DNA from: Salinicola socius
GTDB lineage: Bacteria; Pseudomonadota; Gammaproteobacteria; Pseudomonadales; Halomonadaceae
Assembly: GCF_001937195.1 (NCBI RefSeq)
Contig: NZ_MSDO01000020.1
Coordinates: 124,001 to 188,000 of the forward strand
Reading direction: 5' to 3'
Length of the DNA: 64,000 nt
The notes beneath the pieces were generated by a model. It saw only the letters and a program-made list of their open reading frames with translations, was not told where the DNA came from and did no database searches. The position numbers and the translations under genes were made by a program. Below are positions 1 to 15,862 of this stretch, one piece after another (positions within the stretch are counted from its first letter, which is position 1; each line of letters starts with the position of its first letter).

Positions 1-1779
1 CAACCCCACAGCCTGGTCGTGGACTACACCGGCATCTACTACGACGCGACCCGGCCGTCCGACCTGGAACGGCTGCTCGCCGACGCCGATTTCGAGGCCG
101 ACGAGCTCGCGCGCGCCGACCACGCCATGCAGCGCCTGCGTCGACTGCGGCTATCGAAGTACAACCATGCCCCGGACCTTCCGCTACCCGCGGCCGAGCG
201 CCCGCGCGTGCTGGTCATCGACCAGACCCGCGACGATGCCTCCATCACTCACGGCATGGCCGATGCCAGCTCGTTCCAGCGCATGCTAAAGAGCGCGCTC
301 GCCGACCATCCTGACGCCGAGATCCTGATCAAGACCCATCCGGACGTCATCGCCGGGCGCAAGCAGGGGTATCTGACCCAGGCCTCGTCCGACCCCCGCT
401 GCCGTCTGATCGGTGACGACCTCAATCCGTGGGCGCTGATCGACGCCGTCGACGCGGTCTACGTCGTGACCAGTCAACTGGGATTCGAAGCGCTGATGGC
501 CGAAAAGCCGGTTCACTGCTTCGGCATGCCGTTCTACGCCGGCTGGGGACTGACCCGGGATGCGCTGCGCTGCGAACGCCGTCAGCGTTCCCGCACGCTG
601 TCGGAGCTCTTCGCCGCGGCCTATCTGCGCTACTGTCGTTATGCCAACCCCTACACCGGGCAGGCCTCGACGCTCGAGGCGACGATCGATCTGATCGCCG
701 ATCAGAAACGCCAGCGGGATCGGCTGGCAGGCCGTTGGCTGGCCGTGGGATTTTCCAGCTGGAAACGGGCCTTCATCAGCGACTTCCTGGGACCCGCCTC
801 GAACGTCCGCTTCATCCAGGGCGACCATCCGCAGCCCCGCGAACTGGAGGGCCGCGACAGCCTGGTGGTGTGGGGTCAGAAAGCCACCGACGAGATCAAG
901 GCGCTGTGCCGCCGGCACGGACTCAAGCTGTGGCGGATGGAGGATGGTTTCGTGCGCTCGGTCGGGCTCGGCGTCGATCTGACCCGGCCACTGTCGTTGG
1001 CCTTCGACTCGCGCGGGCTCTACTACGACGCCGGCAACGAAAGCGACCTCGAACGCCTGCTGGCGGAGACGGATTTCGAGCCGGCGCTGCTGACTCGCGC
1101 CCATCGTCTGCGTCAGCGTCTGACTGAACTGAAGCTGTCGAAGTACAACGTGCGGGGCAAGACACTACCCGCGCTGCCATCGGATGCGATCGGTTCGCGC
1201 CCGATCGTGCTGGTGCCCGGCCAGGTCGAGAGCGACGCGTCGATCGCCCATGGTTCGCCCGAGATCAAGACCAACCAGGCGCTGCTCGAGGCGGTCCGAC
1301 AGAATCGCCCCGAGGCGTTCGTCATCTACAAGCCGCACCCGGACGTGGTCTCGGGGGCGCGGGTGGGTCTGCTCGACAGGACCGCCCGCCAGCTCTACGA
1401 CCTGGAGCTGGTCGACTGCGACATCATCGATCTGATCGAACTCGCCGACGAGATTCACACCATGTGCTCATTGACGGGGTTCGAGGGTCTGATGCGCGAT
1501 GTGGAAGTGCATACCTACGGTCTGCCGTTCTACGCCGGTTGGGGGTTGACCCACGATCGGTTATCCTCCCCGCGCCGCCAGCGAAGATTGACACTGGATG
1601 CGCTGATCGCCGGCGCGCTGTTGATGTATCCGACCTATGTCGATCCTGTCAGCGGCGAGTTCTGCAACGCCGATACTGCCGTCGAGTTGATGCAGCAGCA
1701 GCGCGACCAGCGCACCGGCCTGCCCCTGCGCGTTCGCTTCTACCGGCTATACCGCAACCTGTTTTCCAGAAGGCAATGA
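1..1779 (+). CDS. kpsC: KpsC-like capsule Kdo transferase (5' end cut off)
   Basis: The frame is open from the first base, so the start lies upstream of the window; the GTG at 19 is internal. Two homologous domains are visible: residues equivalent to DYTGIYYDATRPSDLERLL near the left edge and SRGLYYDAGNESDLERLL near base 1015, each followed by SKYN, an (I/Y)KxHPDV motif and MPFYAGWG or LPFYAGWG. This tandem layout is that of KpsC, a cytoplasmic dual beta-Kdo transferase that with KpsS builds the poly-Kdo linker on a lipid in ABC-exported capsules. About 590 of an expected 670 or so residues are present. The next gene starts 1 base after the stop, so the two are probably co-translated. Confidence 0.9.
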   Translation, partial: QPHSLVVDYTGIYYDATRPSDLERLLADADFEADELARADHAMQRLRRLRLSKYNHAPDLPLPAAERPRVLVIDQTRDDASITHGMADASSFQRMLKSALADHPDAEILIKTHPDVIAGRKQGYLTQASSDPRCRLIGDDLNPWALIDAVDAVYVVTSQLGFEALMAEKPVHCFGMPFYAGWGLTRDALRCERRQRSRTLSELFAAAYLRYCRYANPYTGQASTLEATIDLIADQKRQRDRLAGRWLAVGFSSWKRAFISDFLGPASNVRFIQGDHPQPRELEGRDSLVVWGQKATDEIKALCRRHGLKLWRMEDGFVRSVGLGVDLTRPLSLAFDSRGLYYDAGNESDLERLLAETDFEPALLTRAHRLRQRLTELKLSKYNVRGKTLPALPSDAIGSRPIVLVPGQVESDASIAHGSPEIKTNQALLEAVRQNRPEAFVIYKPHPDVVSGARVGLLDRTARQLYDLELVDCDIIDLIELADEIHTMCSLTGFEGLMRDVEVHTYGLPFYAGWGLTHDRLSSPRRQRRLTLDALIAGALLMYPTYVDPVSGEFCNADTAVELMQQQRDQRTGLPLRVRFYRLYRNLFSRRQ

Positions 1780-1780
1780 T

Positions 1781-3028
1781 TTGAGCACGACGCGCAAACA
1801 CTTTCTGTTGCTACAAGGTGTCTGCTCACCTTTTTTCGACCGGCTGGGCGAACGGTTGCTGGCGGCGGGTCACTCGGTGACCAAGATCAACTTCACCGTC
1901 GGTGACAGCGTCTACTGGCGTCAGGGGAACACCTACGCCTACCGCGGTCAGGCCAAGGACATTCCCGAGTATCTCTGCGACATCTGGGATCGCCACGAGA
2001 TCACCGATCAGGTGGTGTTCGGCGATCGTCGCCCGGTGCATCGGCGGGCCATTCTCGCCGCCCGTCGCCGTGGCATTCGCAACCACGTCTTCGAGGAGGG
2101 CTATTTTCGCCCTTTCTGGGTGACGCTGGAGCGCGAGGGGGTCAATGCCCATTCGCTGTTGCCGCGCGATCCGGAGTGGTATCGCGAAGCGGGCAAGCGC
2201 CTGCCCAGCGCCGGTCGGCCGCTGGCGTTTCCCAACCAGTTTCACACGCGTGCGCGCCACGACGTGCTCTATCACCTGGCCGGGGTCGCCAACCCGTTTC
2301 TCTATCCCCACTATCGCAATCACGCCCTGGTCACGGCACCGGCGGAGTACGCAGGCTTCCTGTTGCGCAAAGCCCGCGAGCCGCACTGGAAACGCCGTGA
2401 TGCCGATCGACTGCAGGCGCTACACGCGTCCCGGCGGCCGTTCTATCTGTTGCCGCTGCAGCTGAAGAGCGACGCTCAGATCCGCTATCATTCCGACTAC
2501 AAGAGCATGCAGGAAGTGATCGGCAAGGTGGCCGCCTCGTTCGCCTACCATGCGCCGCGCGATGCGTTTCTGGTGATCAAGAATCACCCGCTCGACATGG
2601 GCCTGGCCCAGTACGCGCGACTGATCAAGGTGTTGACCCACGAATATGACCTGGGCGACCGCCTGGTCTATCTCGAGGGCGGCAACCTCGAACCCCTGCT
2701 CAAGCAGGCCAGCGGGCTGGTCACGGTCAACAGTACCGCCGGCAACGTATCGCTGGGCTTCGGCTGCCCGACCCATACCCTGGCTTCTCCGATCTACGAT
2801 ATGGCGGGACTGACCCATCAGGGCACGCTGGATGATTTCTGGCACAATACTTCCGCCCCGGACGCGGAACTGTTTCGGGCCTATCGCCGCACCGTCGCGC
2901 AGACAGTCCAGATCAATGGCGGATTCTACTGTCGCCCCGGGATCGATCTAGCCTCGGAAAACGCTCTCCAGGCGCTGCAACGGGAGCGCTCCCCGCTAAA
3001 ACAACTCATGGATGAGATCGCGTCATGA
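1781..3028 (+). CDS. kpsS: KpsS-like capsule Kdo transferase
   Basis: The 415-residue product starts with KHFLLLQGVCSPFF and has the KpsS-type pattern GDRRPVHRRA, FEEGYFRPFW and VIKNHPLDMG, with a late TVNSTAGNVSLGFG stretch typical of capsule biosynthesis phosphatase/glycosyltransferase-like folds. KpsS adds the first Kdo to the lipid acceptor and works with KpsC. The start is TTG at 1781, with AGAAGG just upstream; no ATG lies close enough to the conserved N-terminus to replace it. It follows kpsC by 1 base, and its TGA overlaps the ATG of the next gene. Confidence 0.88.
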   Translation: MSTTRKHFLLLQGVCSPFFDRLGERLLAAGHSVTKINFTVGDSVYWRQGNTYAYRGQAKDIPEYLCDIWDRHEITDQVVFGDRRPVHRRAILAARRRGIRNHVFEEGYFRPFWVTLEREGVNAHSLLPRDPEWYREAGKRLPSAGRPLAFPNQFHTRARHDVLYHLAGVANPFLYPHYRNHALVTAPAEYAGFLLRKAREPHWKRRDADRLQALHASRRPFYLLPLQLKSDAQIRYHSDYKSMQEVIGKVAASFAYHAPRDAFLVIKNHPLDMGLAQYARLIKVLTHEYDLGDRLVYLEGGNLEPLLKQASGLVTVNSTAGNVSLGFGCPTHTLASPIYDMAGLTHQGTLDDFWHNTSAPDAELFRAYRRTVAQTVQINGGFYCRPGIDLASENALQALQRERSPLKQLMDEIAS

Positions 3029-3822
3029 CCCGAATCGTCATTACCGGGGCCACCGGAGCCATCGGCCAGGCACTGGCCGCCGTCTACGCCAGGCCCGGCA
3101 ATCAGTTGGTCCTGCATGGTCGTCAGCGCGACGTGCTCGATGCGCTCGCCGCCTCCTGCCGCACCGCGGGAGCCGAGGTCGAGCTCAGTCACGTCGAGCT
3201 GGGCCAGACTCGGCTCGACGATGACAGCGCGCTATTGACGTGGCTGGAATCGCTGTGTACGCCTGCCGTGCCTGATATCGTGATCGTCAACGCCGGCATC
3301 AACATCGACATCGGCGAAGACGGCCGGGGCGAAGCGTGGGAAGCGGCCAGCCGCCTGCTCGAGATCAACCTGCGGGTACCGATGGCGATGGGCAACTTCC
3401 TCGGCAAGCGCATGCGCGCCGCCGGTCATGGTCAACTGGTGCTGATGAGTTCGCTCGCGGCGTATCACGGCCTGCCGGTGACGCCCAGCTACAGCGCCAG
3501 CAAGGCCGGCGTAAAGGCCTACGGCGAAGCGCTTCGCGGCTGGCTGGCGCCGCACGGCGTCGGGGTCAGCGTGGTCATGCCGGGCTATGTCAGCTCGAAG
3601 ATGTGCCACGAGATGCCTGGGCCAAAGCCGTTCCTGTGGCAACCCGAGCGCGCTGCCAGGTTCATCGCCAAGGGCGTCGAAAGGAATCGCGCCCGGATCA
3701 GCTTCCCGTTCCCGCTCAATTTCGGCTGCTGGTGGCTGGCCGTGCTGCCGGCGGCGATCTCGCAGCGCCTGCTGACGCTGTTCGGCTACGACCACGACCA
3801 AGGCGACGGAGCGCATCGATGA
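3025..3822 (+). CDS. Short-chain dehydrogenase/reductase (RkpH-like)
   Basis: This is a classical SDR of 265 residues. It has the NAD(P) glycine motif TGATGAIG at residues 7-14, NAGIN near 90, and the catalytic Ser and YSASK near 140-160. The C-terminal 50 residues are hydrophobic (CWWLAVLPAAI), suggesting membrane association, as in 3-ketodihydrosphingosine reductases. ATGA overlaps with the genes on both sides make it part of one operon. With a PKS/FAS and an alpha-oxoamine synthase downstream, I infer it reduces the 3-keto group of the amino-ketone lipid they would form. This resembles RkpH in the rhizobial rkp region. The SDR family call is firm; the substrate is inferred. Confidence 0.85.
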   Translation: MTRIVITGATGAIGQALAAVYARPGNQLVLHGRQRDVLDALAASCRTAGAEVELSHVELGQTRLDDDSALLTWLESLCTPAVPDIVIVNAGINIDIGEDGRGEAWEAASRLLEINLRVPMAMGNFLGKRMRAAGHGQLVLMSSLAAYHGLPVTPSYSASKAGVKAYGEALRGWLAPHGVGVSVVMPGYVSSKMCHEMPGPKPFLWQPERAARFIAKGVERNRARISFPFPLNFGCWWLAVLPAAISQRLLTLFGYDHDQGDGAHR

Positions 3823-5378
3823 TGGATGGATTCTGGAACGGGTTCTGGGCCACGGTGGCCACGCTGGTCGTCACCAGCCTGTTCGAACTGCTGCTCAAGC
3901 CGCGCCCCCAGCCGCTGTGGCAGCGCGCGCCGGCAGCAGTTGCCGTTCACCTGGCCACCACCGTGCTGCACTTCGCCTTGTGGCTGTTGATCGTACAGCG
4001 CCCCTGGTTTGCGCTGGTGATCGCCGCTTCGCTGCAGATGGTGGTGATCCAGGTCAACAACACCAAGTCGAGCTCGCTGCGGGAACCCTTCCTGTGCCAG
4101 GACTTCGAGTACTTCGTCGATGCGGTTCGCCACCCCCGCCTCTACATCCCTTTTTTCGGTATCGGTCTGACCATCGCCGCCAGCCTGGCCGGCGCCATCG
4201 CGATCGGTATCGGCTTCTGGCTCGAACCCTCGCTCTTCGGTCACGCCGACGCGCCCTGGTCGCTGCTGGGCACCCTGGTGCTGGTGGCGGCCAGTATCGC
4301 CGTGCTGATCTGGCAACTGCCCCGGTTGACCGGTTGTACGCTCGAACCCAACGACGACCTGGTCAGGCTCGGCCTCTATCCCTACCTCTGGGCCTATGGT
4401 CGCCTGACTCGTGACCCGATCGACCGTCAGGACAACGACAACGCCTTCGCCCTGCCGGTGGATCTGGATAGGGACAGCGTGGATCCCGCCACGCTGCCCA
4501 ACGTGGTGCTGGTCCAGAGCGAATCCTTCTTCGATCCGCGCGACTGGCATCCCGCCATACGGCGTGAGCTGCTCGGCCAATACGACGCGCTGATGGCAGA
4601 AGCGCTGCAGAGCGGACGTTTCGACGTTCCCGCCTGGGGCGCCAATACCGTGCGCACCGAGTGTGCGGTATTGACCGGCTTCACGCCGTCGCGGCTCGGC
4701 GTGCATCGCTTCAACCCCTACCACCAGCTGTCGAAGCTGGCGGTCAACAACCTGGCAGGCGCGCTCAAACGACTGGGTTATCGGACCGTCTGCATTCATC
4801 CGTACCCCGCCAGCTTCTATCTGCGCGACAAGGTCTATCCCAATCTGGGCTTCGACACATTCCTGGATATCGCCGACTTCGAACTCAGCGAGCGCGACGG
4901 CCAGTACACCGGCGATCTCGCGCTGGCGGATCGGGTTCAGAAACAGCTGGCGGCGGCCGATGAAAAACCGCTGTTCATTTTCGTGATCAGCATGGAGAAT
5001 CACGGCCCGCTTCATCTGGAGACTGCCGATCCGGCCGTGGCAGAGCGGTGGATCGAAGGCGGCGTTACCGATGATTGCGAAGAGCTGACGGTTTATCTGA
5101 GGCATCTGCGCAATACCGATAGTATGCTGGAGCGACTCAGGGACTCTCTTGATAACAATGACCGGCCCGGCATTCTGGGTTTCTACGGGGACCATGTGCC
5201 GATCATGCCGAAAGTCTACGCACGCCACGGCGAGCCGGATGGTTTCACGAACTATTTCATCTGGCAGACCAGGCCTCATTCGGGCGATAACGTGCGGATG
5301 ACGCTTCCAGCCGATAAGCTGGGAACAACGATCTACGAAAGAATTATCGACCACGCTGGCAAGCTTGGTGCGAATTGA
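3819..5378 (+). CDS. LTA synthase-like membrane sulfatase-fold phosphotransferase
   Basis: The start is taken as ATG 3819, overlapping the preceding TGA (ATGATGG); the frame stays open further upstream but only inside the SDR gene. The product is 519 residues. About five hydrophobic helices occupy residues 5-170 and a periplasmic alkaline-phosphatase-superfamily domain runs from about 227 (NVVLVQSESFFD) to the end. T277 sits in TVRTE where LtaS-type enzymes have their nucleophile. HGPLH and GDHVP are metal-site motifs. LtaS/OpgB-type enzymes transfer phosphoglycerol or related head groups from phospholipids. Here it may decorate the capsule or its lipid; it occupies the place of the membrane protein RkpI in rhizobia. 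Substrate unknown. Confidence 0.8.
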   Translation: MMDGFWNGFWATVATLVVTSLFELLLKPRPQPLWQRAPAAVAVHLATTVLHFALWLLIVQRPWFALVIAASLQMVVIQVNNTKSSSLREPFLCQDFEYFVDAVRHPRLYIPFFGIGLTIAASLAGAIAIGIGFWLEPSLFGHADAPWSLLGTLVLVAASIAVLIWQLPRLTGCTLEPNDDLVRLGLYPYLWAYGRLTRDPIDRQDNDNAFALPVDLDRDSVDPATLPNVVLVQSESFFDPRDWHPAIRRELLGQYDALMAEALQSGRFDVPAWGANTVRTECAVLTGFTPSRLGVHRFNPYHQLSKLAVNNLAGALKRLGYRTVCIHPYPASFYLRDKVYPNLGFDTFLDIADFELSERDGQYTGDLALADRVQKQLAAADEKPLFIFVISMENHGPLHLETADPAVAERWIEGGVTDDCEELTVYLRHLRNTDSMLERLRDSLDNNDRPGILGFYGDHVPIMPKVYARHGEPDGFTNYFIWQTRPHSGDNVRMTLPADKLGTTIYERIIDHAGKLGAN

Positions 5379-5415
5379 GAAAGGCGTAGCCCGCGCTACG
5401 AAGCAAGGAGTCCCA

Positions 5416-8400
5416 ATGACCAAACGCGTTGCCATCATCGGCGCGGCTCACCGGTTCCCGAGCGCCCCGACATCACAACGTTTCTGGCAAGCGCTCAAGA
5501 CCGGCGAAGACCTCGTCACCTCGGTCGCAGACGACCGTTGGGGCCTGGAAGCCTATCGCCATCCTGACAAGCAGCACCCTGGCACGAGCTACACTTTTGC
5601 CGCCGGCAGTCTCGGCGACATCTCCGGCTTCGACGCCGGCTTCTTCGGCATCTCGCCGCGCGAGGCCGCCCAGATGGATCCGCAGCAGCGAATCCTGCTG
5701 GAGATGACCTGGGAAGCCATGGAGGACGCCGGTATTCCGCCGCAGACACTGCGCGGAAGCCAGTGCGGCGTGTTCCTGGGTATCGCCAGTCTCGACTACT
5801 CGTATCGCATGGCCGACGACATGTCGGCGATCGAACCTTCGACGGCGACCGGCAACACCTCGAGCATCGCCTCGAACCGGATCTCCTACGTGTTCGACCT
5901 GCACGGTCCGAGCATGTCGATGGATACCGCCTGCTCCTCGTCGCTGGTCGCCTTTCACCAGGCGTGCCAGTCGATCCGCTGTGGCGAAACGGAAATGGCG
6001 CTGGCCGGTGGCATCAGCCTGCACCTGCACCCGTTCGGCTTCATCATCTTCTCCAAGGCGAGCATGCTTTCGCCCACCGGACGCTGCCAGGTCTTCGATG
6101 AGTCCGGAGATGGCTACGTCCGCTCCGAGGGCGGCGGTATTTTCCTGCTCAAGGATTACGACAAGGCCGTTGCCGATGGCGACCGGATTCTGGCCATCGT
6201 TGCCGGCAGTGGCGTCAATACCGACGGTTACAAGAAAGGCCTGACGGTTCCCAATCCCGACGCCCAGGTCGCGCTGATGAGCCAGACCCTGGCGCGCGCC
6301 GGCCTGGCACCGGACGATATCGACTATCTGGAAGCGCACGGCACCGGTACCGCTGTCGGCGACCCGCTGGAAACCCGCGCCATCGGCGCGGCGATCGGCC
6401 AGAAGCGCAAGACGCCACTGCCGATCGGCTCGGTCAAGAGCAATCTCGGCCACCTGGAAACCGCCTCCGGCGTGGCAGGGCTGGCCAAGGCGCTCTACGC
6501 GCTGCGTGAACGCGAAGTGCCCGCCACCATCGGCATTCGCAAGGTCAATCCGCGGATCGACGTGAAGGGCTGGAATCTCGACATCGTCGACAAGCCACGC
6601 AAGCTGAAAGCCGAAGGCCAGTTGACCGTCGGCATCAACTCGTTCGGTTTCGGCGGCGCCAACGCGCACGTGATCCTGCAGTCTCCGCTCGAAACGCCGG
6701 TCTCCGAGGCTATCGATACGCCCGTACGCCGGCTGCCGCTGTGTCTCAGCGCCCGCAGCCCGGAAGCGCTGCGCGAGTTCGCCGCACGCCTGAGCGACAA
6801 TCTGACCGCCGGCAAGGTGTCACTTTACGACACCGCTTACAGCCTCGCTTTCCGTCGCGAAAGCCATCCCCACGCCGCGGTGCTGCTCAGCGACAATGCC
6901 GCCGATGCGATCACCCGGCTGGACGCGCTGGCCGCTGCCGAGAGCGTCCCCGGTGCCGCCGTCGGCGAGCGCGTCGACGCAGGCTACGGCCCGGTGTTCG
7001 TCTATGACGGCAACGGCTGCCAGTGGGCCTCGATGGGCCGCACGCTGCTGAACGAATCCCCGGTCTTCGCCGCGGCCGTGGATGAAGTCGATGCGCTGTT
7101 CGCGCATCACGCTGACTTCTCCCTGCGCGCCGAGCTCGATGGCACCAATCAGCGCACCGACGACCAGCATGGCGCCAATAGACAGCGCAGCAACGATGAC
7201 GATCGTCTGGCCCGCACCGAAATCGCCCAGCCTGCGCTGTTCGCGCTGCAGGTCGGCGTGACCCGGCTGCTCGAGGCCGAAGGCGTGCGCCCCGCCGCCG
7301 TTACCGGCCATAGCGTCGGCGAGGTCGCCGCGGCCTGGGCCTGCGGCGCGCTAAGCCTGGCCGATGCGGTCAGCGTCATCTATCACCGCAGCGCCTGTCA
7401 GGGTCGTACCCGCGGCAGCGGCGAAATGACCGCTGTCGGCCTCGGTGCAGAAGCCATGCAGCGCTGGCTGGAGGACCCCGCTCACTCGGCGGTCGTGATC
7501 GCCGGCATCAACGGCCCCAAGGGCGTGACCCTGGCAGGCCCGGCGGAGGCGCTCGAACGTCTGGAAACAGCGTTGTCCGCGGAGCGGATCTTCGCCAAAC
7601 GCCTGACGCTGGATTACGCCTTCCACAGCGCCGCGATGGATCCCATCCGCGAGGACGTCATCGCCGCGCTGGCGCATCTGTCACCCCGCGACGCCCGGAT
7701 CCCGTTCCTCTCGACCGTGGCCGGCAAGCCACTGGCAGGCAGCGAGCTGGGCGCCGAATACTGGTGGCTCAACATCCGCGAGCCGGTGCAGTTCGGGCCG
7801 GCAGTCGACTCGTTGATCGAATCGGGTGCGCGCACGTTCGTCGAGATCGGCGCGCAGCCGATCCTGCGCCGCTACCTCACCGACGCCCTCTCGGCGCAGT
7901 CGGTCAGTGGCAGCGCCATCGGCACGCTGAGCCGCGATCATGATGGCGCTGCCGCCATGGAAGCGAGCGTGGCAGCGTTGCTGGTCAGCGGTGCCGTCTC
8001 CCCCGAGGCGTGGTTCCCGGTGGCCGGCCGCTTCGTCGAGCTGCCGCACTATCCCTGGCAGCGCGAGCGCTACTGGGTCAAGACCACCGGCGACTCCCAG
8101 GGGCTGATGGGGCGCCACTACGAACATCCGCTGCTGGGCTACCGCCTGGCGCGTCAGGGCATGGCGTGGGAAAGCCAGCTGGATACTCGCCGCCTGCCCT
8201 GGCTCGCCGACCATCGCGTCGGTGACGCCACCGTGTTCCCCGGTGCCGGTTTCGCGGAACTGGCGCTCGCCGCCGCCGCGGCCGCCAAGGCATCGCCGGT
8301 GCTGGATATCGAAGCGCTGGAGATTCTCAGCCCGCTGCTGCTGGATGCCGCCCACGGCAAGAAGCTGCAGCTGGAAATCCAGGATGCCGACGGCTCCCTG

Positions 8401-11400
8401 ACCATCAAGACTCGCGAGCCGGCCAGCGACGACGCCTGGACGCTCAACGCCCGTGCCCGCATCGCGGCGCAGACGCGAGGCCTGCTGCTGACACGTCGCG
8501 GCACGCCGCTGCCGAACCGCCCGGCGGATTACACCCGCGAACAACATCTGGCGATGGCCGCTCATGTCGGGCTGGAGTACGGCCCCGGTTTCCAGGCGAT
8601 CAGCGACGTTTGGGTCGAGGATGACCGCGCCATGGGTCGCATCGAGCTGCCCGCCGCGATTGCCGAGGACCAGCGCGACTGCCTGCTGGCACCCGGCATT
8701 CTCGACAGCGCCTTCCAGCTGTTCATTCCGCTGCTGGCCGATGAGCTCGCCAAGGCGGGCGGACTGGCCTTCGTGCCCGTGCGCCTGGAACGGATCCAGC
8801 TCCAGGTCGACGCCGCGCCGCCGGCGTGGATGGAAGTCCGCCTGACCAGTCGCGCACCGCACTCGCTGTGTGCCGACGTGGCGCTGTTCGATGCCAACGG
8901 CAACGCCGTGGCGGTGGTCGAGGGTGCCCGGTTCAAGGCCGCCCGCCTGCGTCACGCCGTGACTCATCGCTTGAGCTATCTCGATCATCGCCTGGTGCCG
9001 GCACCGCGTGAAGCCGCTGCCCTGCCGCTGGACGACGCCACCGCCGAACTGGCACTGGCACAACTGGTCGACAACTACCGCAGCGTGACCGACAGTCGCT
9101 ACGGCGAAGAGGTCGAACCGCTGCTGGAGACGCTGGTCTCCGCGTTTCTGGATGAAGCCCTGCGCGGCTATGCGGACAGCGACGGGCAACTGCTCGCCGG
9201 CCAATTCGACGCCGGAGCGATCGAAACCCGCCAGCGTCGTCAGGCACTGATCGAACTGGCGCTGGCCACCGGTATCGTCGCGGAAACGCCGGCCGGATGG
9301 CAGCTGCAGGAAACGCCGGATATCGATGCGGCCATGGTATGGAATCTGCTGATTCGGGACTATCCGGACTATGCCGCACTGACCCACAGCATCGGTCGTT
9401 TCGGCCTGCACCTGACGGACTGGCTCGAAGATCGGCTCGACGTCGCCACGCTGGGCCTGGATGCCACGCGTCTGACGCGGCTGGTGCAGGCTGCCGTCGG
9501 CGAGCGCGGCTGGCATGCGCTGGCCGATACCTGGCTGGCGCAATACGCCATGACGCTCGAGCTGTTGCCGCCGCATCAGCGGCTGGTCATGCTCGAAGCC
9601 TCGGCGCTGCGCCCGCAGCTCGGCGAACGGCTGATGGGCGGGCTGAGCGGAGATCGCGCCCAGTATCGCTTCGCCGCGCTGAGAGATAGCGCGCTGAACG
9701 AAGCGGAATCGCTTGCCGAGCATGACGCCAGGGTCGACCTGCTGACGACCGACGCCGCCATCCCTGCGATCGGTGCCAACGTCGCGCTGGTGACGCTGGA
9801 TGGCACCCAGGGCGAGATCGATACGCTGCTGCGTTGGCTGCCCACACAGTTGGCGGACGATGCCCAGATCGCGTTCCTGGCGCTGGGCGACACCGACTGG
9901 CAGTCGTTTCTTTCCCTGGCGATGGAACCGGATTCACGTTCCGCCGACCTCGAGACGACCCGCCAGCAGCTGGAAGGCCTGGGTTATCGCCAGCTCGAAC
10001 GCCATACGCTGGAAAGCGAGCAAGGCGGACTGCAACTGCTGACCGCCCAGGCGCCGTTGACGGCACCCTCGACGGAAACCGAATCCGAGACCGTGCGTGG
10101 CGATGCGGCCCATCCGGCCGAACAGTGGCTGATCATCAGCGACGACAACGCTCAATGGCTGGCCTCGAAACTGATCGCGCGCTTCGAGACGCTGGGACAG
10201 AACGTGCATCATCTGGCCGGCAGCGAATTGGCGCCCCAGGATCTGCTTCCGCTGGCACTGGAATCCTTCGACCCGAGCCAGATCGTCGATCTGCGCGGCT
10301 TGGCCAGCACCGCCGAGGACCGCTGCGTAATCGCTGCCCAGTGGCTGCAGACGCTGGAGTCGCTGGAGTGCCCTGCGGCGCTGTGGTGGCTCACGCTGGG
10401 CGTGGGGGCGCATTTTTCTACCCTGCCCGAGGCCGCAGTCAAATCGTTTTCACTGCCCGAGCATTCCAAGCTGCCCGAAGACGCAGCGCTTTGGGGCTTC
10501 GGCCGTTCGCTACAGAACGAAGCCGGTAGCCGGCAGGTTCGGCTGCTGGACCTGCCGCTGTCGAGCCGCGAGTCGCTGTCGAGCGAGCTGCTGGACGCGC
10601 TGCTGTTCGAGCTCAGCGTGCCGGATGCGGAAACCGAGGTCGTGCTGGATGCCGACGGCCAGCGCTGGGTGCCCCGGCTGGGATTGGCGCCCGCGCCGGG
10701 TACGCAGGTCAGCGAGGAAGAAGCCGCCAGCGATCGCGCCGTCAGCCTGGGCTTCGAGCTGCCGGGTCAGCTGCGTCATCTGCGCTGGCAGCCGCATGAT
10801 CTGCCCGCACCTCAGGCCGGTCAGGTCGAGATCGCGGTCAAGGCGACCGGGCTCAACTTCCGCGACGTCATGTACGCGCTCGGTCTGCTGTCGGACGAAG
10901 CGATCGAGAACGGCTTCGCCGGCCCCACGCTGGGTCTGGAGTTCGCCGGTGAAGTCATCAGCGTGGGCGATCCGAACGGCTCGCTGCGCCCCGGTGATGC
11001 GGTGGTCGGCTTCGGCCCCGCCAGCTTCAGCGACCGGCTGATCGCCGACGTCAACGCGGTAGCGCCGATCCCCGCCGAGATCGGCTATGCGGCCGCCGCC
11101 ACGATCCCGACGACCTTCTTCACCGTCTACTACTCGCTCAAGCACCTGGCGCGCCTGCAGCCCGGCGAACGGCTGCTGATCCACGGTGCCGCCGGCGGTG
11201 TCGGCCTCGCCGCGATCCAGGTCGGCCGCTGGCTGGGCGCCGAAATCGTCGCCACCGTCGGCTCGCCGGAAAAGCAGGACTTCCTGCGCCTGATGGGCGT
11301 CGAGCGCATCTACGACTCACGCAGCCTGACCTTCGCCGAAGAGATTCTCCACGACAACGCGATGGAACGTCAGGCGCGGGAAGACGGCAGCAACGGCCGC

Positions 11401-13026
11401 GGCACCGGCACCGATGGCGTCGACGTGGTGCTGAACTCACTGGCCGGCGAAGCCATCAACCAGAACCTGCGGGTGCTGAAGCCCTTCGGTCGTTTCATCG
11501 AACTCGGCAAGCGCGACTTCTATGAAAACACCAAGGTCGGCCTGCGCCCGTTCCGCAACAACCTCAGCTACTTCGGCGTCGACTCCGACCAGTTGATGAG
11601 CGAGCTGCCCGAGCTCACCGGCGAGCTGTTCAGCGAAATGATGGCGCTGTTCGCCGATGGCACGCTGGCGCCGCTGCCGTACATCGCCTTCGGCAGCGAT
11701 CGCGTGGTCGAGGCTTTCCGCTACATGCAGCAGGCGCGCCAGATCGGCAAGGTCGTCGTCACCTACGAACGCCCGCCGAAGATGGCGCCCGCGCCGGCCA
11801 GGGACATTCCGCTGACGCTGGACGCCGCAGGCACCTACGTGGTCACCGGCGGACTCGGCGGCTTCGGCCTGGCCACCGCCGAATGGCTGGCCGCCAAGGG
11901 CGCGCGCCAGCTGCTGTTGCTGAGCCGCCGGGGCGCGACCACCGAGGAAGCCGAGGCCGGTATCGAACGGCTGGAGGCGCTCGGGGTGACGGTGGCGGCG
12001 CGTGCCTGTGACGTGACCGACGCCAAGGCGCTGGGGCGCGTGCTCGATGACGCACGCCAGACGCTCGGCCCGATTCGCGGCATCGTCCACGCCGCCACGG
12101 TCATCGACGATGGCCTGATCCGCAATCTCGATGAATCGCGCATCCGCCAGGCCATGGCGCCGAAGCTCGAAGGCGCGCGACATCTGGATTCGCTCACGGC
12201 CGACGACGCGCTCGAGTTCTTCGTGGTCTACTCCTCGGCCACCACCCTGTTCGGCAACCCCGGCCAGGCGAGCTACGTGGCCGCCAACCATTGGCTGGAA
12301 GCGTTCACCGCCAACCGTCGCGCCAACGGGCGCCCGGGGACGGTGGTCCGCTGGGGCGCGATCGAGGATGTGGGCTTCCTGGCCCGCAACACCCAGACCC
12401 GCGACAGCCTGCAGGAGCGTCTCGGCGGCCAGGCGTTGACCTCCACCGACGCGCTCGCCGTGCTCGAACGCATGCTGGTGGCGGATGTCGCCTCGCTCGG
12501 CGTACTCGAACTCGACTGGCGGGCGCTGGCGCGCTTCCTGCCCACGGCGGAAGCGCCGCGCTATCGGGAGATCGCGCGCACCGCCGAGGACGACGGCAGC
12601 CAGGAAGGCGACGACGACCTGCAGCAGCTGCTCGCAAGTCTGGCGCCGGAAGCGCTCTATACCACCCTGATCGAAGTCCTCAGCAAGGAGCTCGCCAAGA
12701 TCCTGCTGATCGACGAGGAGAAGATCGATATCCACAAATCCGTCTACGACATGGGCTTCGACTCGCTGATGGGCGTCGAGCTGGTGACCGCGCTGGAAGC
12801 CCGGCTAGGCATTCAGGTGCCGGTGATGGTGCTCAGCGAAGCCGGCACGCTGGCCAAGCTGTGCGACTACCTGATGCTCAAGCTGCGTGGCGGCGAAACG
12901 GCGTCCGACAGCGACGAAGACGCACTCAGCGGGCTGGCCGCCCAGCACGGTGTCGAGGCGCTTCAAAACGGCAACGAACTGCAGAACGGTGACGGATCGC
13001 ACGACGCCGGGGAGGCCAAGTCATGA
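5416..13026 (+). CDS. Single-module reducing type I polyketide/fatty acid synthase (RkpA-like)
   Basis: The start is ATG 5416, with AAGGAG 5 bases upstream (5405-5410); an earlier in-frame GTG at 5365 would lie inside the previous gene. The 2,536-residue order is KS-AT-DH-(degenerate cMT)-ER-KR-ACP. KS has Cys173 in DTACSSSL, H308 in HGTGT and H346 in KSNLGH. AT has S633 in GHSVGE and YAFHS near 736, the Phe favouring malonyl-CoA. DH has H933 and D1097. ER has LNFRDVMYALG near 1811 and GAAGGVGLA near 1922. KR has GGLGGFGLA near 2143, S2274, Y2287 and N2291. ACP carries S2450 in GFDSLM. All reductive domains look intact, so iterative synthesis of a saturated acyl chain is likely. No thioesterase is seen, which fits release by the oxoamine synthase whose ATG overlaps this stop. 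Confidence 0.93.
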   Translation: MTKRVAIIGAAHRFPSAPTSQRFWQALKTGEDLVTSVADDRWGLEAYRHPDKQHPGTSYTFAAGSLGDISGFDAGFFGISPREAAQMDPQQRILLEMTWEAMEDAGIPPQTLRGSQCGVFLGIASLDYSYRMADDMSAIEPSTATGNTSSIASNRISYVFDLHGPSMSMDTACSSSLVAFHQACQSIRCGETEMALAGGISLHLHPFGFIIFSKASMLSPTGRCQVFDESGDGYVRSEGGGIFLLKDYDKAVADGDRILAIVAGSGVNTDGYKKGLTVPNPDAQVALMSQTLARAGLAPDDIDYLEAHGTGTAVGDPLETRAIGAAIGQKRKTPLPIGSVKSNLGHLETASGVAGLAKALYALREREVPATIGIRKVNPRIDVKGWNLDIVDKPRKLKAEGQLTVGINSFGFGGANAHVILQSPLETPVSEAIDTPVRRLPLCLSARSPEALREFAARLSDNLTAGKVSLYDTAYSLAFRRESHPHAAVLLSDNAADAITRLDALAAAESVPGAAVGERVDAGYGPVFVYDGNGCQWASMGRTLLNESPVFAAAVDEVDALFAHHADFSLRAELDGTNQRTDDQHGANRQRSNDDDRLARTEIAQPALFALQVGVTRLLEAEGVRPAAVTGHSVGEVAAAWACGALSLADAVSVIYHRSACQGRTRGSGEMTAVGLGAEAMQRWLEDPAHSAVVIAGINGPKGVTLAGPAEALERLETALSAERIFAKRLTLDYAFHSAAMDPIREDVIAALAHLSPRDARIPFLSTVAGKPLAGSELGAEYWWLNIREPVQFGPAVDSLIESGARTFVEIGAQPILRRYLTDALSAQSVSGSAIGTLSRDHDGAAAMEASVAALLVSGAVSPEAWFPVAGRFVELPHYPWQRERYWVKTTGDSQGLMGRHYEHPLLGYRLARQGMAWESQLDTRRLPWLADHRVGDATVFPGAGFAELALAAAAAAKASPVLDIEALEILSPLLLDAAHGKKLQLEIQDADGSLTIKTREPASDDAWTLNARARIAAQTRGLLLTRRGTPLPNRPADYTREQHLAMAAHVGLEYGPGFQAISDVWVEDDRAMGRIELPAAIAEDQRDCLLAPGILDSAFQLFIPLLADELAKAGGLAFVPVRLERIQLQVDAAPPAWMEVRLTSRAPHSLCADVALFDANGNAVAVVEGARFKAARLRHAVTHRLSYLDHRLVPAPREAAALPLDDATAELALAQLVDNYRSVTDSRYGEEVEPLLETLVSAFLDEALRGYADSDGQLLAGQFDAGAIETRQRRQALIELALATGIVAETPAGWQLQETPDIDAAMVWNLLIRDYPDYAALTHSIGRFGLHLTDWLEDRLDVATLGLDATRLTRLVQAAVGERGWHALADTWLAQYAMTLELLPPHQRLVMLEASALRPQLGERLMGGLSGDRAQYRFAALRDSALNEAESLAEHDARVDLLTTDAAIPAIGANVALVTLDGTQGEIDTLLRWLPTQLADDAQIAFLALGDTDWQSFLSLAMEPDSRSADLETTRQQLEGLGYRQLERHTLESEQGGLQLLTAQAPLTAPSTETESETVRGDAAHPAEQWLIISDDNAQWLASKLIARFETLGQNVHHLAGSELAPQDLLPLALESFDPSQIVDLRGLASTAEDRCVIAAQWLQTLESLECPAALWWLTLGVGAHFSTLPEAAVKSFSLPEHSKLPEDAALWGFGRSLQNEAGSRQVRLLDLPLSSRESLSSELLDALLFELSVPDAETEVVLDADGQRWVPRLGLAPAPGTQVSEEEAASDRAVSLGFELPGQLRHLRWQPHDLPAPQAGQVEIAVKATGLNFRDVMYALGLLSDEAIENGFAGPTLGLEFAGEVISVGDPNGSLRPGDAVVGFGPASFSDRLIADVNAVAPIPAEIGYAAAATIPTTFFTVYYSLKHLARLQPGERLLIHGAAGGVGLAAIQVGRWLGAEIVATVGSPEKQDFLRLMGVERIYDSRSLTFAEEILHDNAMERQAREDGSNGRGTGTDGVDVVLNSLAGEAINQNLRVLKPFGRFIELGKRDFYENTKVGLRPFRNNLSYFGVDSDQLMSELPELTGELFSEMMALFADGTLAPLPYIAFGSDRVVEAFRYMQQARQIGKVVVTYERPPKMAPAPARDIPLTLDAAGTYVVTGGLGGFGLATAEWLAAKGARQLLLLSRRGATTEEAEAGIERLEALGVTVAARACDVTDAKALGRVLDDARQTLGPIRGIVHAATVIDDGLIRNLDESRIRQAMAPKLEGARHLDSLTADDALEFFVVYSSATTLFGNPGQASYVAANHWLEAFTANRRANGRPGTVVRWGAIEDVGFLARNTQTRDSLQERLGGQALTSTDALAVLERMLVADVASLGVLELDWRALARFLPTAEAPRYREIARTAEDDGSQEGDDDLQQLLASLAPEALYTTLIEVLSKELAKILLIDEEKIDIHKSVYDMGFDSLMGVELVTALEARLGIQVPVMVLSEAGTLAKLCDYLMLKLRGGETASDSDEDALSGLAAQHGVEALQNGNELQNGDGSHDAGEAKS

Positions 13027-14345
13027 GCCAGTCCCGCGATGTGCTGAAACAACGCCTGCTGCAGGAAGCGCGCCAGCGCCGCCAGCAGCGCCCGGAGGGC
13101 GACACGGCCCCCAGACCGGCCGCTACCAGTGTCGACGAGCGCTTCACCCGCTTCGACCGTCATCCCGGCTATCAACAGCTCAAGATGATGCGCGAAGGCG
13201 GCAAGCGTCTCGGCATTCCCGACCCGTTCTTCAAGGTCCACGAGAGCACCGCCGGCGCCACCACGGTGATCGGCGGCCGCGAGTGCATCAATTTCGCCAG
13301 CTACAACTACCTGGGGTTGGCGCATCATCCCCAGGTGATCCAGGCCGGCGTCGATGCGCTGGAACGCTACGGCAGCTCGGTATCGGCCAGTCGCCCGGTC
13401 TCCGGGGAACGCCCGATCCACCACGAGCTGGAACGGGCGATCGCCGAGACCTACGAGGTCGAAGAGGCGGTGGTCTTCGTCAGCGGCCACGCCACCAACG
13501 TCTCGACGCTGGGTTACCTGCTCGGCCCCAAGGATCTGCTCCTTCACGACGAGTACATCCACAACAGCACCGTGGTCGGCGCCCAGCTCTCCGGCGCCCG
13601 CCGCATGAGCTTCGCGCACAACGACCCGGCGGCGCTCGAAACATTGCTGACACGGCATCGTCGTCAGTTCGAGCGCGTGGTGGTGGTGATCGAAGGACTC
13701 TACAGCATGGACGGGGATGCCCCGGACCTGAAGCGCTTCGTCGAGATCAAGAAGCGCCATCAGGTGTGGCTGATGGTGGACGAAGCCCACTCCTTCGCCG
13801 TGATGGGCGATCGGGGGCTGGGCCTGCGGGAATACTGTGACGTGCCGGCGACGGACGTCGATATCTGGATGGGCACGCTATCCAAGACGCTTTCCGGCTG
13901 CGGCGGCTATATCGCCGGCTGTCGGGAGCTGGTGCAGATGTTGCGCTACTTCGCGCCGGGGTTCCTGTACAGCGTCGGGATGCCCGCCCAGGTCGCCGGG
14001 CCGTCGCTGGCCGCGCTTCAGGTCATGAAGGATGAACCCGAGCGCCTCGAGCGCCTGCACGACATCTCCCGCTTCTTCCTGCAGCAGGCCAGGCTCAAAG
14101 GGTTCGATATCGGCGAAAGCATTGGCGTTGCGGTGGTGCCGGTCATCGTCGGCAGCTCCGTGCTGGCCGCCGGGCTCTCCGATGCCCTGTTCAAGCACGA
14201 CATCAACGTCCAGCCGATCCTGCACCCGGCCGTACCCGAGAAAAGCGCACGCCTGCGCTTCTTCCTCAACTGCGACCATACCCGCGAGCAGATCGACCAG
14301 ACCCTCGATACACTGGAAACGGAGTGGAAGGCGCGGACCGGCTAG
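13023..14345 (+). CDS. Alpha-oxoamine synthase family PLP enzyme (RkpG-like)
   Basis: The 440-residue product is a fold-type I PLP enzyme of the AONS/KBL/ALAS/serine palmitoyltransferase family. NYLGLAHHP, SGHATNVSTLG, VDEAHSF and the PLP lysine K288 in LSKTLSGCGGY are all present. Such enzymes condense an acyl thioester with an amino acid, with decarboxylation, to give an amino ketone. The N-terminal 60 residues are polar and extra. Its ATGA overlap with the ACP-terminated PKS strongly suggests that it takes the acyl chain directly from that ACP. It parallels rkpG of the Sinorhizobium rkp-1 cluster. The amino acid (glycine, alanine or serine) cannot be told from sequence by eye. Confidence 0.88.
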   Translation: MSQSRDVLKQRLLQEARQRRQQRPEGDTAPRPAATSVDERFTRFDRHPGYQQLKMMREGGKRLGIPDPFFKVHESTAGATTVIGGRECINFASYNYLGLAHHPQVIQAGVDALERYGSSVSASRPVSGERPIHHELERAIAETYEVEEAVVFVSGHATNVSTLGYLLGPKDLLLHDEYIHNSTVVGAQLSGARRMSFAHNDPAALETLLTRHRRQFERVVVVIEGLYSMDGDAPDLKRFVEIKKRHQVWLMVDEAHSFAVMGDRGLGLREYCDVPATDVDIWMGTLSKTLSGCGGYIAGCRELVQMLRYFAPGFLYSVGMPAQVAGPSLAALQVMKDEPERLERLHDISRFFLQQARLKGFDIGESIGVAVVPVIVGSSVLAAGLSDALFKHDINVQPILHPAVPEKSARLRFFLNCDHTREQIDQTLDTLETEWKARTG

Positions 14346-14373
14346 CGTCCCCCCTTCTCGAGGGTGATAAGAC

Positions 14374-14417
14374 ACGGCCTTGTCACCTGACGACTTGACG
14401 GGTGACAAGGCCGTTTT
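14374..14417 (+). terminator. Intrinsic terminator of the kpsC-PKS-oxoamine operon
   Basis: Perfect 14-base arms (14374-14387 and 14401-14414, ACGGCCTTGTCACC and its complement) surround a 13-base loop and are followed by TTTT. It lies 28 bases after the oxoamine synthase stop. Confidence 0.9.
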
Positions 14418-14499
14418 GCTGCCTAACAATGAAGGTCGCAGAGGAACCTGTGTTGACTATCGCCTTTCCGACAGACGGCACGCACCAGACTCGCAATAT

Positions 14500-14790
14500 C
14501 TAGAAGCCAGCTTCCTTCTGGTGTCGAATGGCTAGCACCACGACAACATCACCATCGATACGGTAGCGGGCGACATAGCCGCTATCGCCATGATCGATCA
14601 TCCAGTCCCGATAGTCTGCTGGCAGATCCTCGACAAGGCGCCCGATATGGGGCAACTCCCCGAGTGCCTGAACGCTTTGGATGATGGCTTTCGCAGCCCT
14701 TTCAGCCGCTGCCGGGTTCTTCGGTCGCAGAAAATCACGCAATCGCTCCAGATCCCGAATCGCTGCGGAGGCAAAAATTACTCGTGCCAT
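14500..14790 (-). CDS. RelE/ParE-family toxin
   Basis: This 96-residue protein has the ParE/RelE pattern: AIRDLERLRDFLRPKNPAAA in the N-terminal helices, ELPHIGR in the middle, and the final strand pair YVARYRIDGDVVVVLAIRHQKEAG. ParE members poison gyrase and RelE members cleave mRNA; the subgroup is not resolvable here, although the R-x-L-x-D-x-L-x-P start is more ParE-like. It follows and overlaps the antitoxin gene by 13 bases, the usual antitoxin-first layout. Confidence 0.85.
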   Translation of the reverse strand: MARVIFASAAIRDLERLRDFLRPKNPAAAERAAKAIIQSVQALGELPHIGRLVEDLPADYRDWMIDHGDSGYVARYRIDGDVVVVLAIRHQKEAGF

Positions 14791-15056
14791 GTTGGGCCTG
14801 GCACCTCGTTATCCGTGCCCCAACTGGTCAACCACTCTTCTACTTCGTCAGCGGTCACATGCATACCGGTGGCCTGGTAATGTTCCCAAGCCTTGAGCGT
14901 ATCCCGTCTGAACGCTTCCTGCTTTTCTTCGCGGCCCACATATTGTTCGATGGCCTCGCGCATTAGCCAATGTGCCGAGCGCCTGCGAGCGTTAGCTAAA
15001 TGCTGGATTCGATCTCTCAGATCGTCGTCGAGCTTGATGGACGTCGGCTTCGCCAT
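14778..15056 (-). CDS. CopG/RHH-type antitoxin
   Basis: The start is ATG 15056, with GGAGG 6 bases upstream; an ATG 12 bases earlier at 15068 has no such site. The 92-residue product opens MAKPTSIKLDDDLRDRIQHLA, a ribbon-helix-helix DNA-binding segment (strand followed by two helices with RRSAHWLMREAI). An acidic C-terminal tail should wrap the toxin. It probably represses its own promoter just upstream of 15057 together with the toxin. Confidence 0.85.
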   Translation of the reverse strand: MAKPTSIKLDDDLRDRIQHLANARRRSAHWLMREAIEQYVGREEKQEAFRRDTLKAWEHYQATGMHVTADEVEEWLTSWGTDNEVPGPTWHE

Positions 15057-15223
15057 AGTGGCCTCCATAGTCAGAGGTAATACCTATCACTACTATAAAC
15101 TGGCCAAATCTGACTGTCGATGACGGCAGGCACCGATATTTCTTTACGACCGTGAGCGTTGCAACCCTGTTTACCCTTCCATACGCCTTTCGAGCCGCAG
15201 CACCGAAACCGATTCGGACGTCA

Positions 15224-15523
15224 TCATGATTCTTCGTCCAGCAATCCGTGCCAAGGATTCTCATCCGCCGGCGGGCTAGCCTCACGGTCGGCCTGGCTCA
15301 ATAGATGCTGCACGGCCAGGCGCTTTTCCCGGGGGATCAACATCAGTTCGGCATTGAGCCCTTCCACGACCAGCGAGAGCGTGTCCAACCGTGGGTTGCC
15401 TTCGCGCTCCAGGCGCTGGTACTGCTGACGCGTCATGCCAATACGCGACTGCATGTCCTGCTGGGTCAACTGAAGCTGGCGCCGTCTTTGAAGGATCTGG
15501 TCCAGCACAGGTTTTCGTTGCAT
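15224..15523 (-). CDS. XRE/HipB-like HTH regulator
   Basis: The start is ATG 15523, preceded by GGGAG; a GTG 12 bases earlier lacks support. The 99-residue protein has a helix-turn-helix at residues 10-60 (LTQQDMQSRIGMTRQQYQRLEREG) and then LDTLSLVVEGLNAELMLIPREK, the HipB-like ending of the domain. No hipA or other toxin gene follows; the gene downstream is the unrelated RHH pair. It may be an orphan antitoxin or a regulator left by a degraded module. A near-palindrome just upstream is its probable operator. Confidence 0.75.
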   Translation of the reverse strand: MQRKPVLDQILQRRRQLQLTQQDMQSRIGMTRQQYQRLEREGNPRLDTLSLVVEGLNAELMLIPREKRLAVQHLLSQADREASPPADENPWHGLLDEES

Positions 15524-15551
15524 GCGTGCTCCCACTCTTCACAATAAATGC

Positions 15552-15593
15552 ATCATATAAGATGCTTTTAACAAAAAAAGCAGCTTATATGAT
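15552..15593. promoter_or_regulatory. Inverted-repeat operator upstream of the XRE gene
   Basis: Arms ATCATATAAGATGCT (15552-15566) and AGCAGCTTATATGAT (15579-15593) are inverted copies with one mismatch, separated by 12 A-rich bases. They lie 28-70 bases upstream of the XRE start, as expected for an autoregulated HipB-like protein. Binding is inferred. Confidence 0.6.
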
Positions 15594-15700
15594 TCCGAAA
15601 GGCGGTCAGGGATCAACACGTAATGAAAGGGCATTCACGGCAACCGCTCTCCCGTCAGGGAATGAACTCGGGGCCACCGGCTTTCAGCGCTCCGGAATCG

Positions 15701-15787
15701 AAGAGCGCTCACCTGCGCTTCTTCCTCAACTGCGAACAGATCGACCAGACTCTCGATACACTGAAAACGGAGTGGAAGGCACGCACC
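15701..15787 (+). pseudogene. Remnant of an alpha-oxoamine synthase 3' end
   Basis: These bases match 14241-14339 of the intact gene with, by hand count, 8 mismatches and one 12-base in-frame gap. The encoded peptide LRFFLNCEQIDQTLDTLKTEWKART mirrors the intact LRFFLNCDHTREQIDQTLDTLETEWKART. The rest of the gene is absent. A similar terminator follows at the same relative place, so the repeat is a gene-end fragment with its terminator. Confidence 0.85.
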
Positions 15788-15824
15788 CGCTGGCGCCAAG
15801 CGGCCGGCAGAGCCAGAACGAAAA

Positions 15825-15862
15825 CGGCCTTGTCATCCGACTGGATGACAAGGCCGCTTTGT
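15825..15862 (+). terminator. Terminator-like hairpin behind the oxoamine synthase remnant
   Basis: Arms CGGCCTTGTCATCC (15825-15838) and GGATGACAAGGCCG (15843-15856) enclose a GACT loop, followed by CTTTGTT. The stem resembles that of the terminator at 14374 but the loop is shorter. It could also stop transcripts from the right. Confidence 0.7.

Follow-up and report, generated by a model that had tools for sequence, protein, structure and literature searches.

Which lipid carries a capsule whose linker genes run straight into genes for a polyketide synthase? The question is raised by an operon of Salinicola socius (family Halomonadaceae) at the start of the window, by which we mean the whole 64,000-nucleotide stretch of DNA analysed here (positions 124001-188000 of contig NZ_MSDO01000020.1, C81 below). 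The source genome measures 4.17 Mb, and its nearest named relatives are Salinicola species (identity up to 92% in the LtaS-like protein). Six genes on the plus strand encode, in order, KpsC and KpsS, which are transferases of 3-deoxy-D-manno-octulosonic acid (Kdo), a short-chain dehydrogenase/reductase (SDR), an LtaS-like membrane transferase, a type I polyketide synthase (PKS) and an alpha-oxoamine synthase (AOS). On balance we lean slightly towards an operon that makes and uses its own capsule anchor, phosphoglyceryl-sphinganine, through all of the steps set out below. As a gene set the operon is the rkp-1/wcb capsule-lipid set, already in print for Halomonadaceae; what is new is the likely molecule made by this known set and a split among KpsS proteins.

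Table 1 The capsule-lipid operon of the S. socius window and the sequences at its end (coordinates within the window).
Feature	Coordinates	Strand	Evidence and assignment
KpsC-like beta-Kdo transferase	1..1779	+	C-terminal 592 of 686 aa inside window; PF05159, 271 bits, three stretches
KpsS-like Kdo transferase, 415 aa, TTG start	1781..3028	+	PF05159, 284 bits
SDR (WcbP/RkpH/SgaC type), 265 aa, YxxxK	3025..3822	+	PF00106; proposed 3-ketosphinganine reductase
LtaS/GacH-like sulfatase-fold membrane transferase (WcbQ/RkpI type), 519 aa	3819..5378	+	PF00884; proposed phosphoglycerol transferase
Mono-modular type I PKS, KS-AT-DH-ER-KR-ACP (RkpA/WcbR/SgaA type), 2536 aa	5416..13026	+	Pfam, motifs, KS tree
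Pyridoxal phosphate (PLP)-dependent AOS (RkpG/WcbT/SgaB type), 440 aa	13023..14345	+	PF00155, trees, catalytic residues; proposed serine:acyl-ACP condensing, chain-releasing enzyme
Terminator-like hairpin, 14-base arms and T run, operon end	14374..14417	+	Sequence, fold
Decayed second copy of AOS 3' end and terminator	15644..15860	+	Sequence comparison

An earlier note on this DNA, made from its letters alone, had the six genes joined throughout by 1-base gaps or 4-base overlaps. All six are present and four of the five junctions are that tight (a 1-base gap at KpsC/KpsS; 4-base overlaps at KpsS/SDR, SDR/LtaS-like and PKS/AOS), whereas 37 bases, with AAGGAG ahead of the ATG at 5416, separate the LtaS-like gene from the PKS. 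The start codon of KpsC lies 282 bases upstream of the window (C81:123719). The hairpin at the operon end, whose last base is also the end (14417) that the note gave for the operon, has a folding energy of -30.5 kcal/mol, with 0 of 200 shuffles as low; a separate hairpin scan, restricted to loops of 3-8, did not list it. Named genomes were scanned with the LtaS-like protein, and neighbours within 10 kb were counted in the best 80 of 560 relatives: SDR was found in 79, KpsS in 77, PKS in 76, AOS in 73, KpsC in 71 and all six genes in 66, a recurrence that places the operon far beyond chance. Several of the missing genes fall on short loci or contig ends. Halomonadaceae make up most of these 80 relatives, the remainder including Methylococcaceae and Collimonas.

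The closest known sets of this kind are compared here through papers cited by PMC number and from excerpts of their text. The rkp-1 region (rkpA-G-H-I-J) of Sinorhizobium meliloti is credited in a review with a part in K-antigen export and with making 'a specific lipid carrier' (PMC4881576). Like the window it holds PKS, AOS, SDR, LtaS-like and KpsS-like genes in one place, with AOS and KS in the same clades, but the gene order differs and there is no KpsC match in that stretch. Identities to the window are 47% for the AOS, 36-40% for the PKS, 27% for the SDR, 31% for the LtaS-like protein (432 aa) and 40% for KpsS; the labels RkpA and RkpG were assigned by gene content, order and literature, as the S. 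meliloti record carries no such names. In S. meliloti Ak57 the LtaS-like gene in the rkpI place (L037:18100-19822) is unannotated, and homology begins part-way into the open frame. Within the Halomonadaceae, wcbPQRT of the sister genus Cobetia, named after Burkholderia wcb, are lipid-carrier genes downstream of kpsSC (PMC11766843), the same genes with the same neighbours; two Cobetia loci (L072, L077) are among our relatives, with the AOS at or past the end of both. Unlike our reading, the excerpts of PMC11766843 call the product 'probably fatty acids' and give WcbQ a polysaccharide role. WcbQ and WcbR are also listed in Halomonas piscis (PMC10752968), and excerpted literature elsewhere assigns to the rkp/wcb lipid genes the work of a 'fatty acid synthase'.

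The PKS had been described in the earlier note as a complete KS-AT-DH-ER-KR-ACP synthase, and Pfam gives all six domains in that order. Its motifs are DTACSSS, HGTGT and SNLGH in the KS, GHSVG and YAFH in the AT, H-x8-P (with D where G is usual) and DSAFQ in the DH, YVAAN in the KR and GFDSL in the ACP. No thioesterase family is among the Pfam matches of the PKS, which points to the AOS as the release enzyme. The kinship to rkp proposed in the same note is borne out by the common gene set and by the very phylogeny it had suggested as a check: the KS groups with RkpA (19 rows, support 98/97; one of them, Thioclava, is without an annotated AOS within 9 kb) and the AOS falls in the RkpG clade (26 rows, 99/92), apart from serine palmitoyltransferase (SPT), 5-aminolevulinate synthase (ALAS), BioF and Kbl. 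With seven Pseudomonas-type AOS added and four near-copies (L126, L130, L203, L204) omitted, the RkpG clade persists (31 rows, 98/90), and the motifs of the window AOS agree with those of the Pseudomonas type.

The AOS has the PLP lysine, histidine and aspartate of its family, residues that we take to be catalytic and that are the same in SPT. With canonical bacterial SPT it thus has reaction type and catalytic residues in common, but the SPT clade is separate (100/100), and scores against the NCBIfam SPT models NF047599, NF047600 and NF047603 are 269, 275 and 202 bits (cut-offs 500, 640 and 670); tree and missed cut-offs together rule out a canonical SPT/ceramide pathway for the window AOS. 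A glycine-using AOS (ALAS or Kbl) is less likely, given a serine at the position aligned with the threonine of ALAS GGTR; we assume that this exchange is informative, and serine also stands there in most BioF and SPT rows. A search of the genome with the AOS returned only itself, BioF and one fragment, BioF (identified by the AOS tree, 58450-59553, minus strand) being the only other full-length AOS found. On a Planktothrix plasmid (L219:2590-10188) an RkpG-type AOS ends a type I PKS between glycosyltransferase genes, with no kps genes annotated in the stretch. The swf mono-modular PKS/fatty acid synthase of sponge symbionts has the same six domains in a single module, but it is accompanied by a reductase-sulphotransferase and a radical SAM protein, and its KS lies apart from RkpA/WcbR (PMC3908369, excerpts); the different partner genes rule out membership in that family.

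The closest biochemistry found is that of the sga cluster of Pseudomonas fluorescens MYb115, in which the PKS SgaA and the AOS SgaB make C24, C26 and C28 sphinganines, SgaB being near-exclusive for L-serine over alanine and glycine (PMC12134224, published in 2025). The excerpted paper also names an SDR, SgaC, and describes further lipids with 154 Da of extra mass; these are 'most likely' phosphoglycerol sphingolipids, a structure taken from mass. The cluster was published without a capsule, rkp or wcb link: the text of PMC12134224 has 0 occurrences of 'capsul', 'rkp', 'wcb', 'Kdo' and 'LTA synthase', and a paper joining PKS sphingolipids to capsule genes was not found in open-licence PMC by queries that left out the name sga.

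With the AOS we searched 199 genomes of a genus coded g43; as the published sgaA primers have matches in it, we take it to be Pseudomonas. Eight had a match at E 1e-90, seven at 539-557 bits and one (G418) at 327. The PKS of G569 is matched at its start and end by the sgaA primers, with one mismatch per primer, and that of G567 with two per primer; the forward primer had no exact match in a set of 236 loci. The G569 locus reads KpsF, phosphotransferase, KpsC, KpsS, SDR, LtaS-like, GNAT, KpsC and PhyH, followed on the opposite strand by AOS and PKS, so that the primer-matching locus holds kps genes, although AOS and PKS are turned against them. In G569 four genes separate SDR from AOS, which agrees with the tags KW062_RS19775 for the SDR and RS19800 for the AOS (PMC12134224) if locus tags run in steps of five, as is conventional. 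From primers and gene order, the published sga cluster very probably is this operon type.

Our comparisons with sga use the G569 locus, the sgaA-primer match, in place of MYb115 sequence. By way of it the PKS, AOS and SDR of the window are homologous to SgaA, SgaB and SgaC, with identities of 48%, 56% and 51% (241 aa), and of 42% for the LtaS-like protein and 49% for KpsS. Four of the seven stronger genomes (G504, G511, G550, G569) hold KpsC, KpsS, SDR, LtaS-like, second KpsC, AOS and PKS together; in G381 and G530 KpsS lies elsewhere in the genome. A locus close to that of G569 in G567 (L248:2600-7500) holds PKS-AOS with two KpsC-like genes, one of them shorter; no SDR was found there in 40 kb and the LtaS-like gene is reduced to a 223-aa piece. 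The earlier note had proposed that PKS chain and amino acid give a sphingoid base that carries the capsule. The sphingoid part of that idea largely stands by way of the published chemistry of these close homologues (PMC12134224), while the capsule on such a lipid is still a proposal; a phosphoglycerol step was missed.

Phosphoglycerol transfer would fall to the LtaS-like protein. LtaS-type enzymes move phosphoglycerol from phosphatidylglycerol (PG) to an alcohol. Eight PDB sequences matched the window protein; seven bear the name of a phosphoglycerol transferase or lipoteichoic acid enzyme, the eighth is uncharacterised, and the best solved relative is the GacH phosphoglycerol transferase (E 7.9e-31). 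Across 34 sequences no variation occurs at E235, T277, H395, D458 and H459, which occupy the T, E, NH and GDH positions in the alignment with GacH. The sulfatase fold and these residues, presumably for metal binding and the threonine nucleophile, are those of the LtaS/GacH phosphoglycerol transferases. Five transmembrane helices are predicted in the window protein. When the loops between them are projected onto relatives, all 34 sequences are richer in K/R in loops 1 and 3 than in loops 2 and 4 and at the N-terminus, which under the positive-inside rule suggests that the catalytic domain faces the cytoplasm. E. coli OpgB and EptA, which are known to be periplasmic, come out periplasmic under the same charge treatment. 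The transferase may even be turned round relative to its kin and be active at the cytoplasmic face.

In E. coli, KpsC and KpsS provide the Kdo linker of group 2 capsules on (lyso-)PG, with KpsS placing Kdo on the glycerol of that acceptor (PMC7694667, excerpts). If the LtaS-like protein is a GacH-type transferase, a Kdo transferase of a kind known from (lyso-)PG could act in this operon; by this analogy the LtaS-like gene would be the bridge between the lipid enzymes and the Kdo enzymes. In contrast to the E. coli system, the window KpsS is adjoined by lipid genes and falls among the lipid-gene KpsS in a 42-member tree (33 of 50 KpsS genomes, eight named loci and the own second copy). A single branch (96/88) parts 24 KpsS with an AOS or LtaS-like gene from 17 without; the lipid-gene label needs one change on this tree, whereas shuffled labels need 13.3 on average. 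The addition of five Pseudomonas-type KpsS, including that of G381, where KpsS lies far from the PKS, again gave one change (97/90), in a tree that left out seven rows (the own second KpsS, L039, L066, L160, L173, L174 and L175). The 17 KpsS genomes that are in no tree include none with an AOS at 350 bits and one, G304, with a 160-bit LtaS-like match on another contig. The split fits two acceptor types, although label and taxonomy coincide in part.

A second, divergent KpsS-like gene (L009:8215-9462, contig C81:96215-97462) lies ~28 kb upstream and is 44% identical to the first; it too falls inside the lipid-gene side. The KpsS equivalog model NF050054 proved useless as a label of acceptor type: its cut-off is narrow, 600 bits against 270.7 for the window KpsS, and 0 of 299 genomes reach it. 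None of the six KpsS that score highest against this NCBI model (304-388 bits) is on the lipid-gene side; the next two, from G313 (289) and G300 (286), are.

We hypothesize the following route. Judging from its domains, the PKS would build a long, saturated acyl chain that stays tethered to the ACP, and the AOS would condense it with an amino acid, most likely L-serine, to 3-ketosphinganine, as is in print for SgaB; L-serine use by the window AOS is inferred by that analogy. The SDR would reduce 3-ketosphinganine to a very-long-chain sphinganine, to which the LtaS-like enzyme would move phosphoglycerol from PG, giving phosphoglyceryl-sphinganine, a one-chain twin of lyso-PG. A phosphoglycerol on sphinganine would add the 154 Da reported in MYb115 and provide the head group of lyso-PG. 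KpsS, of the specialised type, would then put the first Kdo on the glycerol of this lipid and KpsC would lengthen the linker. The capsule would be built on that linker and exported by the Kps transporter, judging from what KpsS and KpsC do elsewhere; we infer that it is attached to the sphingolipid instead of lyso-PG.

The distribution of these genes bears on how closely lipid and Kdo enzymes belong together. Of 58 sampled genomes, all 18 of the genus (own included) have the LtaS-like gene, as do 3 of the 19 from other genera of the family and, weakly, 1 of 21 beyond. The set or most of it occurs on plasmids of Pseudomonas, Paraburkholderia, Caballeronia, Shinella, Sinorhizobium and Methylobacterium; KpsC was matched only in the Pseudomonas and Methylobacterium loci, no KpsS or KpsC match was found in that of Caballeronia (37 kb), and no SDR match in that of Shinella. 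In 299 Pseudomonadota genomes, taken as the same set for the AOS, LtaS-like, KpsS and KpsS-model scans, an RkpG-type AOS of at least 350 bits (next match 309) was found in 17, KpsS (E 1e-15) in 50 and an LtaS-like protein of at least 350 bits in 11. KpsS was present in 13 of the 17 AOS genomes (Fisher 2.7e-8) and 10 of the 11 LtaS-like genomes (7.3e-8), and an AOS in 11 of these 11 (3.5e-16), all values being uncorrected for relatedness. With an LtaS-like threshold of 220 bits, 13 genomes have both this gene and KpsS; 12 of them hold the two within 2.4 kb on one contig and the 13th has them on two contigs, while the AOS is often apart from KpsS (on other contigs in G147, G194, G272 and G206, for example). 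The LtaS-like gene therefore keeps nearer to KpsS than the AOS does. Three of the 12 (G300, G323 and G313) lack the AOS, and the longest frames of LtaS-like and KpsS overlap by 1 base in G300 and by 4 bases in G323. An LpxC-like deacetylase gene stands between PKS and AOS in Paraburkholderia (L035:16947-17861), Caballeronia (L036:16904-17830) and G320 (L184:15441-16382).

Three other accounts of the operon have to be weighed. It could make a free sphingolipid, as a membrane lipid or secondary metabolite, with the capsule on ordinary lyso-PG and the neighbourhood reflecting shared regulation only. PMC12134224 does treat sphinganine lipids as secondary metabolites, with capsule unmentioned in its excerpts, four of 17 PKS-AOS genomes are without a KpsS match, and PKS-AOS adjoins other genes in Planktothrix and Streptomyces; but the close order with KpsC and KpsS in 66 of 80 loci, the split of the KpsS tree and a review that gives rkp-1 to K-antigen export and a specific lipid carrier (PMC4881576, excerpts) make this account unlikely. 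GacH and OpgB decorate glycans, and GacH is the best solved match of the LtaS-like protein, both of which count for a transferase that adds glycerol phosphate to a capsule sugar in the periplasm, the sphingoid base then anchoring without a phosphoglycerol head. The Cobetia capsule bears mannose-6-phosphoglycerol, for the transfer of which WcbQ has been suggested (PMC11766843, excerpts). Yet S. meliloti also has the LtaS-like gene, and the KR5 antigen of Rm41, a strain other than that of our record, is described as glucuronic acid and a pseudaminic acid derivative (PMC4881576, excerpts); the gene lies within 2.4 kb of KpsS even where PKS and AOS are absent; and the sga producer itself is reported to contain what are probably phosphoglycerol sphingolipids (PMC12134224). 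Sugar decoration in the periplasm is accordingly quite unlikely in our estimate.

Further modification of the base, by PhyH-type hydroxylation or by N-acylation through GNAT and LpxC-like enzymes, would lead to a phytosphinganine- or N-acyl-type anchor. The window has a PhyH-type gene at 23412-24539 whose product is 36% identical over 284 aa to the PhyH of the sga-type locus, GNAT genes occur in Pseudomonas and Paraburkholderia loci, and the LpxC-like genes of Paraburkholderia, Caballeronia and G320 belong here as well. No match to the G569 GNAT was found within the own 100 kb, however, and a PhyH-type dioxygenase may act on sugars, and we regard a modified anchor as very unlikely.

Phosphoglyceryl-sphinganine, the anchor that we favour, has its own difficulties. 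No capsule carrying it has been seen. Studied LtaS kin act outside the membrane and KpsS inside, so homology argues for an outside catalytic domain, contrary to the charge pattern, and of 11 LtaS-like sequences put through a simple transmembrane predictor, no more than 5 came out with five helices, the others with three or four. The window AOS is below every NCBIfam cut-off it was scored against. Induction of sgaAB raised sphinganines and not phosphoglycerol lipids (PMC12134224, excerpts), the sgaB reverse primer has no close match in G569, and WcbQ is proposed to act on the polysaccharide instead (PMC11766843, excerpts). Four of the 17 AOS genomes lack KpsS at E 1e-15, G567 has PKS-AOS without KpsS at E 1e-10, and Caballeronia has PKS, AOS, SDR and LtaS-like genes without a KpsS match in 37 kb; the AOS genomes without KpsS, G567 included, indicate that the lipid can exist without Kdo use. 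Conversely, G300, G323 and G313 have LtaS-like and KpsS genes but no RkpG-type AOS, and no PKS, AOS or SDR match was found in the 20 kb of these loci (L180:8505-11341, L181:8298-11287 and L182:7499-11696), from which it follows that the LtaS-like enzyme is not tied to a sphingoid acceptor. Conversion of monoacylglycerol to lyso-PG would fit as its reaction there. The KpsS trees cover 33 of 50 KpsS genomes, and lipid-gene label and taxonomy partly overlap.

Beyond the operon, at 14420-15860, a ParE-type toxin, an RHH antitoxin-like protein and an HTH_3 protein are encoded on the minus strand between the terminator and the decayed copy of AOS end and terminator, which has 80% DNA identity across ~108 bases; the stretch may be an insertion of which one end was duplicated. 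Another capsule region, at 19759-41494 and on the opposite strand, encodes a 792-aa KpsC-like protein, KpsF, the PhyH dioxygenase, three LicD-type proteins, a CDP-glycerol glycerophosphotransferase with tetratricopeptide repeats, a Stealth protein and an outer-membrane polysaccharide exporter of the OPX family. At 47884-52428 lies a 1514-aa open reading frame without any Pfam match.

Joining the rkp/wcb genes to the chemistry of SgaA and SgaB yields a named molecule, phosphoglyceryl-sphinganine, and a role for every gene of the set. We hold in even balance the wider claim that a whole branch of KpsC/KpsS capsules, comprising the rhizobial K-antigen, Burkholderia-type wcb, Halomonadaceae and some Pseudomonas, is anchored by this lipid and has its own KpsS subfamily, the PKS sphingolipids of Pseudomonas being anchor precursors. 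If that is true, sphingolipids would be a second general anchoring mode for Gram-negative capsules, KpsS would have two acceptor types distinguishable by sequence, and the Pseudomonas sphingolipids now classed as 'secondary metabolite' would serve a structural purpose.

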